This document shows, one piece after another, positions 38,703 to 44,370 of a stretch of DNA of 44,521 nucleotides. Made by a program: the position numbers and the translations under genes. The notes under the pieces were generated by a model that saw only the letters and a list, made by a program, of their open reading frames with translations, was not told the origin of the DNA and searched no databases. The first letter of the stretch is position 1; every line of letters begins with the position of its first letter. The stretch is from Eubacteriales bacterium (GTDB taxonomy: Bacteria > Bacillota > Clostridia > Oscillospirales > Butyricicoccaceae), in assembly GCA_030523305.1 (NCBI GenBank), contig JAUNIY010000007.1, forward strand, positions 1-44,521, given 5' to 3'.

Positions 38703-38729
38703 TTAGCACTCAGCACCAAAGAGTGCTAA
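38703..38729 (+). promoter_or_regulatory. CIRCE operator (HrcA site)
   Basis: TTAGCACTC, 9 nt, GAGTGCTAA: the exact CIRCE consensus. It overlaps the predicted start of htpG transcription, so htpG should be repressed by HrcA and induced by heat. Confidence 0.97.
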
Positions 38730-40806: not shown

Positions 40807-40891
40807 GCGCAAACAGAAAAATCCACAGGCTGTGGAAAGGCCTGCGGATTCCTCTGAGAGAAAAGTGTATATCTATCAAGGTGGAATGGGT

Positions 40892-41005
40892 TTAGCGGTA
40901 GTCATAATCCATACGATGCGCCGGTGCAGTCATCGGATTGGCCATATGTGTGAAAATTGTGCCGAGAACCGGCAGAATAGCAAGCAGTACAGTAGTAATC
41001 ATCAT
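40892..41005 (-). CDS. Tandem micropeptide 1 (37 aa, one membrane helix)
   Basis: Begins MMITTVLLAILPVLGTIFTH, a single hydrophobic helix of about 18 residues, then a short polar tail ending MDYDYR. AGAAGGA lies ~6 nt before the ATG. Third and last of three tandem paralogues that share LP, then two hydrophobic/small residues, I, P or F, and HM at the end of the helix. Predicted to sit in the membrane with a short acidic/aromatic tail. No family recognised. Confidence 0.75.
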   Translation of the reverse strand: MMITTVLLAILPVLGTIFTHMANPMTAPAHRMDYDYR

Positions 41006-41048
41006 TTGTTCCTTCTTTCTTTGGTCTCCTATCCTCATTGGGATGTTG

Positions 41049-41159
41049 TTATCTCATGTCGTATCCTTCTTCTGCTTCCGGCTGGATGTTCATCATGTGT
41101 ACCGGAATGACTGCCAGGATCGGCAGAATGACAAACAGTGCGGTCAATGCGTTCGTCAT
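41049..41159 (-). CDS. Tandem micropeptide 2 (36 aa, one membrane helix)
   Basis: Begins MTNALTALFVILPILAVIPV, followed by HMMNIQPEAEEGYDMR. GAGGGGG lies 6 nt before the ATG, a strong ribosome site. The core VILPILAVIPVHM aligns without gaps with LVLPCVGMIPAHM in the upstream and AILPVLGTIFTHM in the downstream neighbour. The tail is acidic and ends with a Tyr-Asp pair, like the others. The gap to micropeptide 1 is 43 nt. Confidence 0.78.
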   Translation of the reverse strand: MTNALTALFVILPILAVIPVHMMNIQPEAEEGYDMR

Positions 41160-41181
41160 CGTGACCCCCTCATTTCATATA

Positions 41182-41301
41182 TCAGAATGTCAGATAATCG
41201 AACTCGTCCTCTACATCGGGCAATCGGGCGGTCATATGTGCCGGAATCATGCCGACACACGGAAGCACCAGCAGTAAAAGTGTCATAACAGCAGTCATCA
41301 T
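41182..41301 (-). CDS. Tandem micropeptide 3 (39 aa, one membrane helix)
   Basis: Begins MMTAVMTLLLLVLPCVGMIP, then AHMTARLPDVEDEFDYLTF. AAGAGGGA lies close to the first ATG. First of the three genes in transcription order; a Cys is present in the helix. The 22-nt gap to micropeptide 2 suggests one mRNA. A TATAAT at 41389-41394 (minus) about 90 nt upstream may be the -10, but its -35 is not recognisable. Confidence 0.75.
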   Translation of the reverse strand: MMTAVMTLLLLVLPCVGMIPAHMTARLPDVEDEFDYLTF

Positions 41302-41648
41302 AAATCCCTCTTTTCGTATCTGTTCGCTGTCGTTATTATGTGGCGTCGAGGTTCCTGTTTTGGTTTTCCTCTCTGTTTTTATGGCTTTATTATAGTCTTA
41401 AAATACAAATCTCGCTTTCATTTTTTTGCGAAAGAATCTGCTTTTTTCCGGCCTTTTTCCGGGGTGCGTTCCACTTTTTTTCGGTTTCTTGCGTTCGCAG
41501 TCCAGCAGCTCCAAAATCCACCCTCTCCCTCGTTTTTCACCGCAAAAAACGCAGCATTTTTATATCGATATACTTGTTTTGTGCCTGCAACATTCTGGTG
41601 TTTTCTGCATATGTTTTTGTCATTTGTGTAACATTTTTTTGCAACAGC
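41302..41648. other. Leader and intergenic region upstream of the micropeptides
   Basis: AT-rich, with long A- and T-runs on alternating strands. It contains the possible micropeptide -10 (41389-41394, TATAAT on minus). Open frames on the plus strand here are F-rich readings of T-runs without ribosome sites. Nothing else seen. Confidence 0.5.
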
Positions 41649-41690: not shown

Positions 41691-42938
41691 TTATTTTTTC
41701 AGGTACACTGCCGTAGCGGTCTTGACGCTGTCTTCCTCTGAGCCGATGCCCAGCTGTCCATACAGGTTGCACCCAATGGTACGCAGCACACCATCCGAAG
41801 ATCGGTACATACTGTTGAAGCCGCCCGCTGCAATGGCTTCTACATGCTTCGCCAGCTCCCGCGGCTCGGCCTGATAATAAATGCTTTCGTCGCCGATTTC
41901 ATAAACATCGTCGCCATATTTCATGCCCAGCTGGGTATAGTTGTTGACGCCCCAGGTATACGCCGTGCCGTCGCTTGTCAGCGCAACGGCGTGCGCGCTG
42001 CCCGCCGCGATATCGGTCACGTCCTCCATCAGCTTCAGCGGGGTTGCCTGAACATTGTTTTCCATGTCCGCAACCTTCGTCGTGCCAACCGAGCCGACGC
42101 GGTTATCGCCCCAGCCGTACAGTACGCCGTCTTCGGTCAAGGCAAACGCCATATACCGCGTGCCGCAGGCCACCTTGCTGATACCGTCCATCACCTTGGC
42201 CGGCTCAGACTGGTATGCTTCGCCATTGCTGTTCTCGCTGTCGGTCTGCTCCAGCCCCAGCTGGTGGTCAATATTGCTGCCCCATGCGTACAGCGTGCCG
42301 TCTGTGGTGATCGCCATCGAATAATCCTCTCCGGCATCGATATACGCCACATTGTCCATCAGCTTGTACGGCGTGGACATGCACGCATACCCATCTTCAT
42401 CGGTCTGGTCGCATGCGCTGTCGTCAATGCCGAGCGCGCCGTCCTTATTCCTGCCCCAGACATACAGTGCGCCGTCCTCGCCGATCGCCATCGCGTGCTT
42501 GGAGCCTGCCGCTACCATGGCGACATCCTCCATCATTTTTTCCGGCTCCATACGGCTGATGTTCATACCGTCGCCCATCTGATAGCTGGTGTTGTCACCC
42601 CACGCATATAGGTTGCCGCTCTTATTGAGCGCAAAAGACAGCTCGTTGCCTGCCGCCACCTGTACGACACGGCCCGGCACCTCTACCTTGACCGGCTCGG
42701 ATTTGTTGTCGCAGGTGACATCTCCGAGCTCGCCCATCTTATTGTGCCCCCATGCGTACACATCGCCTCCCGCGTCCACGGCCAGCATATGGTCTTCCCC
42801 GATCGCCATCTCCTGCGACGTTATGTCTTCCGTCGAACCGTTCCGGCTCAGCCCGATAAACATGGCCACTGCAATGACAACCACCACAACTGCCGTTCCC
42901 AGCAATGCCGCGATGGCTCTGTTTCTCTCTCTTGACAT
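41691..42938 (-). CDS. Membrane-anchored RCC1-repeat beta-propeller protein
   Basis: A 415-aa protein. A basic N-terminus (MSRERNR) and one helix (about 8-29) are followed by about six or seven RCC1-type repeats, each carrying a VYAWGxNxxGxLG-like core (YAWGHNKMGELG, YAWGDNTSYQMG, YVWGRNKDGALG, YAWGSNIDHQLG, YGWGDNRVGSVG, YTWGVNNYTQLG). A seven-bladed propeller outside the cell, tethered by the helix, is expected. Such propellers bind proteins or glycans; no catalytic motif is evident. GAGGAAG lies ~7 nt from the ATG. It follows gluQ by 51 nt and may be read through from it. Confidence 0.88.
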   Translation of the reverse strand: MSRERNRAIAALLGTAVVVVVIAVAMFIGLSRNGSTEDITSQEMAIGEDHMLAVDAGGDVYAWGHNKMGELGDVTCDNKSEPVKVEVPGRVVQVAAGNELSFALNKSGNLYAWGDNTSYQMGDGMNISRMEPEKMMEDVAMVAAGSKHAMAIGEDGALYVWGRNKDGALGIDDSACDQTDEDGYACMSTPYKLMDNVAYIDAGEDYSMAITTDGTLYAWGSNIDHQLGLEQTDSENSNGEAYQSEPAKVMDGISKVACGTRYMAFALTEDGVLYGWGDNRVGSVGTTKVADMENNVQATPLKLMEDVTDIAAGSAHAVALTSDGTAYTWGVNNYTQLGMKYGDDVYEIGDESIYYQAEPRELAKHVEAIAAGGFNSMYRSSDGVLRTIGCNLYGQLGIGSEEDSVKTATAVYLKK

Positions 42939-42989: not shown

Positions 42990-43949
42990 CTACCCCGTTT
43001 TTGCCTCCTGTAAAATCCCCATTGGAAGCACGGCGTCTTCCTTCGATATTTGCTCCCATGAAAAACCTGCCGCCAGCTCCTGTAACGTCACCGGCTGCGC
43101 CGTCGGGCGCAAGCCAACTGCCGCCGCCAGCATACCGATGATCGGCTCCGGGCGGCCAAACCGTCCGCGCAGCACACCCAAATCAAGATCGCCGTCCCGC
43201 TTGGACAGCCGCCTGCCATCCGGCGCAGTGAGCAGCGGGATATGATAAAACGCCGGCGCACGCAGGCCGAGCTGTTCATACAGATAGATCTGCCGCGGGG
43301 TGGACTCCAGCAGGTCGCGTCCGCGCACCACCTCCGTAACGCCCATTTCCGCGTCGTCTACGACCACGGCAAGTTGATAGCCGTATACGCCATCCGAACG
43401 CCGCAGGATAAAGTCGCCGCAGTCCTCCGCCAGGTTTTGTGCATATGCGCCTTGGCACCCATCGATCAGGCAGATCTGCCTGTCCGGTACCCTGACGCGC
43501 ACAGCAGGCGGCCGCTGCCTGCGCTTTTGCGCAACCTGCTCCGGTGTCAGGTTCCGACACGTCCCGGCATACACATACGTGCCGTCCGAGCGGTGCGGCG
43601 CCTGGGCCGCATGCAGCTCGGCCCGGCTGCAAAAACACGGGTACAGCAGGCCCTTGCGCTCCAGCTTTTCCAGATACCTGCCGTACAGGTCAAACCGGTT
43701 GCTCTGGTACCACGGTTCGCCGCCTGCGCTGCCGCCGTCGTCCCAATCGATGCCGAACCACTGCAAATCGTCCTCAATCTGGTCGGCCAGTGTGCGCGGG
43801 CACCGCATGGCATCCAAATCCTCGATGCGCAGCAGATAACGCCCGCCGGCAGCGCGCACCGACAGCCAGGACAGCATCGCGCACAGGATATTGCCCAGAT
43901 GCATGCGCCCGCTGGGCGTCGGTGCAAATCGGCCACATACCGTCTGCAT
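42990..43949 (-). CDS. gluQ: Glutamyl-Q tRNA(Asp) synthetase-like protein
   Basis: A 319-aa, class I synthetase-like enzyme with only the catalytic half of GluRS. HIGH-type motif FAPTPSGRMHLGN, the zinc site CFC...Y..GTC characteristic of GluQ (residues about 108-130), and a KMSKS-type loop RRLSKRDGD. GluQ attaches glutamate to queuosine in tRNA(Asp). It lacks the anticodon-binding domain of GluRS. The ATG at 43949 is 1 nt after the stop of the upstream gene (TAACATG), so coupling is likely. A start at 43976, overlapping that gene, is also possible. Confidence 0.88.
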   Translation of the reverse strand: MQTVCGRFAPTPSGRMHLGNILCAMLSWLSVRAAGGRYLLRIEDLDAMRCPRTLADQIEDDLQWFGIDWDDGGSAGGEPWYQSNRFDLYGRYLEKLERKGLLYPCFCSRAELHAAQAPHRSDGTYVYAGTCRNLTPEQVAQKRRQRPPAVRVRVPDRQICLIDGCQGAYAQNLAEDCGDFILRRSDGVYGYQLAVVVDDAEMGVTEVVRGRDLLESTPRQIYLYEQLGLRAPAFYHIPLLTAPDGRRLSKRDGDLDLGVLRGRFGRPEPIIGMLAAAVGLRPTAQPVTLQELAAGFSWEQISKEDAVLPMGILQEAKTG

Positions 43950-43950
43950 G

Positions 43951-44370
43951 TTACTGCTGCATCGCCGGGCGGTCATGACATTCCGCCATGCATTTTGCGC
44001 AGTCGTGGATGCAGTTCATCGGGTCGTCTTCGTCCTCCTCCGGGATGACAATTTTCGACACATCGCCTACCTCTTCCCCGGCCAGATAGCCCGCGATGCA
44101 CTCGATCGCATCGCCGGTACATCCGGGCAGGACATGCATGCCCAGCATGCGCAGCGTGGTCTGCAGCGCTGTACCCACCTCTCCGGCCAGCAGGACGTCA
44201 ATGTTTTGCTGGGATAGCTGGAACAGGACGCTTGTAATCCCCTCCTTGCCCAGCGCAATGGTTTCCCGCGCAATCGGTTTGCCATCCTCTTCGGTGACAA
44301 TTAGGACCTCCGTGCTGTGCGCAATGGTATCCGAAAGTTTCCCATCTTTTACTGCTGCTGCTACTTTCAT
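43951..44370 (-). CDS. NifX/NifB-C-terminal-like (dinitrogenase cofactor domain) protein
   Basis: A 139-aa protein with the NifX/NafY ribonuclease-H-like fold: MKVAAAVKDGKLSDTIAHST, then GKEGITSVLFQLSQQNIDVLLAGEVGT and a GCTGDA loop. Family members bind iron-sulfur or Fe-Mo precursor clusters; in non-diazotrophs the role is uncertain. A C-terminal extension carries CIHDCAKCMAEC, a CxxxCxxCxxxC set that may hold a cluster or metal. GGGGAGGAGA lies 6-7 nt from the ATG. No nif gene is in the window. Confidence 0.85.
   Translation of the reverse strand: MKVAAAVKDGKLSDTIAHSTEVLIVTEEDGKPIARETIALGKEGITSVLFQLSQQNIDVLLAGEVGTALQTTLRMLGMHVLPGCTGDAIECIAGYLAGEEVGDVSKIVIPEEDEDDPMNCIHDCAKCMAECHDRPAMQQ

Follow-up and report, generated by a model that had tools for sequence, protein, structure and literature searches.

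Three tandem genes for predicted single-helix membrane microproteins and the linkage of their relatives to inositol clusters

The stretch of DNA analysed here, referred to as the window, is 44,521 nucleotides long and contains three consecutive minus-strand open reading frames of 39, 36 and 37 codons, which are present with their ribosome sites as the original prediction described them. A purine-rich Shine-Dalgarno-like site (GAGG, AGGG or AAGG) lies ahead of each frame. The three genes and the elements that flank them are:

41182..41301, minus strand: micropeptide A, 39 amino acids, MMTAVMTLLLLVLPCVGMIPAHMTARLPDVEDEFDYLTF; open reading frame with Shine-Dalgarno site AGAGGG; within-subtype identity 68-92%; pN/pS 0.45
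41049..41159, minus strand: micropeptide B, 36 amino acids, MTNALTALFVILPILAVIPVHMMNIQPEAEEGYDMR; open reading frame with Shine-Dalgarno site GAGGGGG; pN/pS 0.35
40892..41005, minus strand: micropeptide C, 37 amino acids, MMITTVLLAILPVLGTIFTHMANPMTAPAHRMDYDYR; open reading frame with Shine-Dalgarno site AAGAAGG; C-terminus YDYR
41389..41433, minus strand: promoter element TTTCGCAA-N31-TATAAT with a GAAAG box near -35, upstream of the array, from an alignment of 10 upstream regions of the window's genus
40822..40836, minus strand: stem-loop resembling an intrinsic terminator, located where the array transcript would end

All three peptides fit the common core pattern that had been proposed for them, [VIL]LPx[LV][GA]xI[PF]xHM. 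Local alignment scores for the three A/B/C pairs are 73, 51 and 53, and these were matched by 0, 8 and 3 of 20,000 shuffles in which helix and tail composition were kept apart. The similarity of the peptides is thus not a by-product of a common hydrophobic composition, and their mutual homology exceeds that given by shuffles that preserve the architecture. The expectation of one hydrophobic helix per peptide also agrees with the calculations. The 19-residue hydropathy of the window peptides is 2.14-2.35, and AlphaFold predicts a helix at residues 2-25 (mean pLDDT 91 and 87 in the first two ten-residue blocks) and a low-confidence tail. There is no charge within the first 20 residues of A, B or C. 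The tails have acidic to basic charges of 5 to 1 in A, 4 to 1 in B and 2 to 2 in C.

When the 12 genomes of the window's genus (g1) were searched with a profile of A, B and C, most of them gave matches. A deeper profile recovered full-length members with intact frames in 9 of the 12, the window's own genome included; of the 11 others, 8 thus have members. The members belong to three subtypes, with the following patterns:

Subtype A: ...LPCVGMIPAHMAARL..E[DE]EFDYL[TV]F
Subtype B: ...LPxLGVIPVHMMNxxPAxEExYDMR
Subtype C: ...LPxxGxIPAHM..A..APV.Y..YDYR

Mean identity within subtypes A, B and C is 80, 68 and 51%, and identity between subtypes is 39-48%. Tandem arrays recur across the genus, one or two per genome, in the order A-(B)n-C. 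In multi-gene arrays A comes first, B is present zero to two times and C is last where present. The compositions observed are:

A-B-C array: the window, G003
A-B-B-C array: G005, G010
A-C array: G008, G011
Two arrays, A-B-B and A-B-C: G007
Lone C-type peptide, MTTVLTALIIAMPLVATVLSHSSHAAPVVYSSRSAYDYR: G001

For 87 of 87 same-subtype pairs (36 in A, 21 in B, 15 in C and 15 in a further type, D, see below) pN is lower than pS, with ratios of 0.35-0.54. A to D are thus coding genes under purifying selection, and the proposal that the window holds real, duplicated genes is borne out. In G002 the gap between htpG and the RCC1-like gene is only ~110 bp and the array is absent, so the array can be missing as a whole and in this respect behaves as a unit. 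The contigs of G055, G003 and G007 (L062, L063, L064 and L065) terminate in or next to peptide arrays. The probable cause is the collapse of near-identical arrays during assembly, and the true array copy number may be above that counted.

Variations in the helix and a constant C-terminal end have been observed outside the genus. A family-level profile found members in a second genus, g7 (G054 and G055), as three tandem copies of the form ...AMxASHLANP...YDYR. The g7 helix has no Pro, a His is present in most copies and the YDYR end is retained. A DNA pattern for YDYR followed by a stop codon led to a further type, D, with the form MLFxIxxxxIFAxMYFT...YDYR, in eight g2 genomes (one D each) and one g3 genome. 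D has neither Pro nor His, so the LP..G.I..HM core is a genus-level feature. It had been suggested that the fixed Pro in mid-helix and the His-Met pair at the membrane edge hint at a metal or proton-related function. The Pro and His are invariant, but only inside the genus, and the Met varies (T, N, R, L, H or S). Since the Met is variable, g7 has no Pro and D has neither Pro nor His, a metal or proton role is not upheld.

As judged from the sequences, the deepest common feature is an N-terminal helix with a C-terminal [YF]-D-[YM]-R (FDYLxF in subtype A), and the YDYR in which C ends is the deepest conserved motif of the family. D is likely, though not proven, to be homologous to A, B and C on the basis of its size, architecture, tail and partly similar promoter. 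A profile built from D gave no match to the g1 peptides. The family probably spans four genera and, as far as sampled, does not extend beyond one bacterial family, probably Butyricicoccaceae.

Searches of Pfam, NCBIfam and PHROGs found no relative of the peptides (for A, B and C, none in Pfam even at E<=10), in keeping with the view that these are uncatalogued micropeptides; the D type gave only DUF6681, with E 0.1 and for one member. No relative was found in the PDB or among viral contigs, plasmids and phages, and Rfam gave no match in the array region. HMM searches of 394 genomes of the order found no clear member beyond the bacterial family, and the weak matches examined were within longer frames or had the tail missing. 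The family is real and has no name in the libraries searched, and its members are predicted to be small one-helix membrane proteins. Gene callers pass over genes this short, so that a conserved, multi-copy family of gut bacteria has no name in these libraries. The family resembles the unannotated microbiome small proteins of the GMSC catalogue (PMC11364881) in being conserved, small and without functional annotation; in contrast to the GMSC families, its subtypes, promoter and genomic linkage have been worked out. The YDYR end and the promoter are handles for finding further members.

The promoter is a conserved property of the g1 arrays. TTTCGCAA is followed ~31 bases on by TATA[AC]T in 10 of 10 aligned upstream regions, and the pattern TTTCGCAA-N31-TATAAT has 4 matches in the window's own genome and 1-4 in each of five congeners, compared to 0 or 1 for backward controls. 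The -10 is perfect, and in most arrays a GAAAG-like box, not TTGACA, occupies the -35 position; it therefore looks like an activator-dependent promoter. The upstream regions of g7 and D have a similar GAAAG box ahead of an A+T-rich -10.

A link to heat shock had been considered because htpG is adjacent. A perfect CIRCE, TTAGCACTC-N9-GAGTGCTAA, is located at 38703-38729, just upstream of htpG (start 38770), and is the sole CIRCE in the window; htpG is thus probably controlled by HrcA here. A scan of the window found no CIRCE operator at the array promoter, and membership of the array in the HrcA/CIRCE regulon was rejected for this reason. The main g1 array follows the RCC1-like gene and usually faces htpG. 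However, no htpG was found within 6 kb of the G008 array, which adjoins the RCC1-like gene, and in G011 the htpG locus has no array and the array sits elsewhere. The RCC1-like gene is the most constant neighbour of the recurring arrays across the genus. With CIRCE at htpG only, a promoter of its own for the array and arrays away from htpG in G011 and G008, the heat-shock link finds no support, and the adjacency of htpG is incidental. The RCC1-repeat protein of the window (41691-42938, minus strand) has a hydrophobic anchor-like N-terminus. The Glu/Gln-tRNA-synthetase-like gene at 42990-43976 (minus strand) encodes 328 amino acids with the catalytic domain only and is possibly a tRNA-modifying GluQ-type enzyme.

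Another theme is the linkage of the family to inositol clusters, in which iolD, iolE and iolG were named from Pfam families (TPP enzyme, xylose-isomerase-like TIM barrel and GFO/IDH/MocA, respectively), sequence and position. All nine D peptides are tail-to-tail with an AraC-family gene, which is AraC2 in seven and the iolG-side AraC in G013 and G037. Six of the nine are head-to-head with iolD, and eight of the nine are near an iolG-MFS_2 operon. The G037 peptide is head-to-head with an HpaB-family gene that is also found in the iol cluster of G007 and G011, and G016 has the D peptide and AraC2 with no close iolD. In g1, G011 and G007 (one of its two arrays) have an A-B-C or A-C array directly after iolE-iolG, closing the inositol cluster. 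The G011 cluster consists of iolG, an MFS_2 transporter, two xylose-isomerase-like genes (one iolE-like) and a second iolG, with the array at the 3' end. Most g1 genomes have the array beside the RCC1-like gene and outside the iol cluster, and a PTS_EIIC_2 and WG-repeat locus adjoins the g7 arrays where these are not at contig ends.

The occurrence of the peptide tracks that of AraC2, the AraC gene of the cluster. AraC2 orthologues (at least 62% identity) are present in 20 of 87 genomes of the family. In g1 they occur in 8 of 9 genomes with the peptide and in none of the 3 without it (Fisher p=0.018), and in g2 in 8 of 8 and 3 of 17 (p=0.00015); these tests ignore shared ancestry and are thus supportive only. 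The exceptions are G005, which has an array without AraC2 or a close iolD in an assembly that is 72% complete, three g2 genomes with AraC2 and no peptide, and G050, with a close iolD and no peptide. An activator site common to the array and the iolG1 promoter was also considered. TTTCGCAA-N31/32-TATAAT is found at both promoters in G000 and G003; array and iolG1 promoters have only a weak TTTYCRCAA similarity, and the aligned iolG1 promoters of other genomes carry a different box (CACAAGAACCCGCTAACG). The common site was rejected and stays a weak hint.

What do these peptides do? The preferred reading is that they are small membrane proteins which modulate a transporter or another membrane protein and are controlled together with the use of inositol or sugar. 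It is given a probability of roughly 0.4. A modulator of a transporter was among the roles first listed, and it stays the best guess on the genomic linkage to iol and MFS_2 genes. Relatives adjoin inositol-breakdown genes, thus the peptides probably tune a membrane protein there and not the heat-shock neighbour. The array would form one operon for three paralogous single-helix membrane microproteins, each of which would insert through its uncharged N-terminal helix. The short tail ending in [YF]-D-[YM]-R is probably cytoplasmic; the first basic residue of C and D members lies beyond the helix, a position that mildly favours this orientation under the positive-inside rule. The peptides would then probably act as post-translational modulators or accessory subunits of a membrane protein of inositol or sugar metabolism, the MFS_2 sugar transporter encoded in the iol cluster being one candidate. 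Their own activator-type promoter would turn them on, plausibly through an AraC-family regulator of the iol cluster.

Other explanations have to be weighed. The small size (<60 amino acids), single helix with a mid-helix Pro and Gly, acidic tail and tandem copies are also found in Fst/Ldr-like type I toxins, small hydrophobic membrane-damaging peptides that are silenced by antisense RNA and known in Firmicutes. The helix of Fst carries a P...G motif, and its C-terminal tail is charged and disordered (PMC8309996). However, the helix spacing in the window peptides is PxxG (LPxxG) and that of Fst is PxxxG (APxxxGxxx motif), the D type has no Pro, the peptides lack a Pfam match, and a polycistron of three distinct, order-conserved genes would be an unusual toxin layout. 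Type I toxin mRNAs usually hide their start regions, but the start of the array mRNA is folded no more than shuffles (z 0.50), and the start regions are 0.22-0.61 unpaired compared to a transcript mean of 0.43-0.48, that is, about as open. Nine arrays showed no conserved antisense sigma70-type promoter, although consensus scans miss weak promoters. On this evidence a type I toxin is unlikely. The constant A-(B)n-C order and the distinct subtype tails suggest a hetero-oligomeric membrane complex or channel of which A, B and C would be obligate small subunits, each with its own fixed role. However, the only peptide of G001 is of the C type, B is missing from G008 and G011, which have A and C, and the g2 genomes have a single D each; there is thus no fixed A/B/C set, and the chance that this explanation is correct is small.

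It is also conceivable, if rather improbable, that the peptides are processed signals in which the hydrophobic segment serves for export or anchoring and a C-terminal piece ending in YDYR is released. Across genera no part of the peptides is better conserved than the C-terminal end, and a regulator gene adjoins the D type. However, basic residues are absent both ahead of and inside the helix of the window peptides, which thus have no standard signal peptide, and the neighbours scanned include no peptide-receptor (RRNPP) or protease gene. Pheromones usually diverge between species, but this C-terminal end is nearly invariant between them. Leaderless bacteriocins or other secreted membrane-active peptides encoded in tandem are very improbable. 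Like the aureocin-type bacteriocins, the window peptides are short, hydrophobic, tandem and leaderless. For predicted leaderless bacteriocins the mean charge is 4.63 (PMC11580447), whereas the A and B tails are net acidic, not cationic, and the helix half has no charge. The window neighbours are htpG, the RCC1-like gene and the Glu/Gln-tRNA-synthetase-like gene, with no dedicated exporter, transport or immunity gene alongside. One extra C-type copy in G003 is near ABC exporters.

For the preferred reading, that of membrane modulators, there are precedents. SgrT binds and inhibits PtsG and is a known small transporter-binding protein (PMC10710835). SgrT, and MgtS, which acts on PitA, are tiny like the window peptides (~30-45 amino acids), and the relatives of the window peptides are likewise linked to sugar-transport gene clusters. 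No sequence relation to SgrT or MgtS was found, and SgrT is encoded within an sRNA whereas the present family forms tandem arrays. The inositol link gives the family its first testable function. If the peptides gate a transporter, they would add to the few modulators of this kind that are known outside Proteobacteria. A more speculative proposal, and something of a long shot, is that the YDYR-tailed microproteins are a new family whose A, B and C paralogues form a graded or hetero-oligomeric set through which inositol or sugar entry is gated, with an AraC-type regulator in control, and that this set moves between loci as a self-contained, promoter-bearing cassette. The inositol clusters L111, L112, L113, L179 and L180 contain at least two AraC-family regulators, and an HpaB-family gene is close by; this is unusual company for iol genes.
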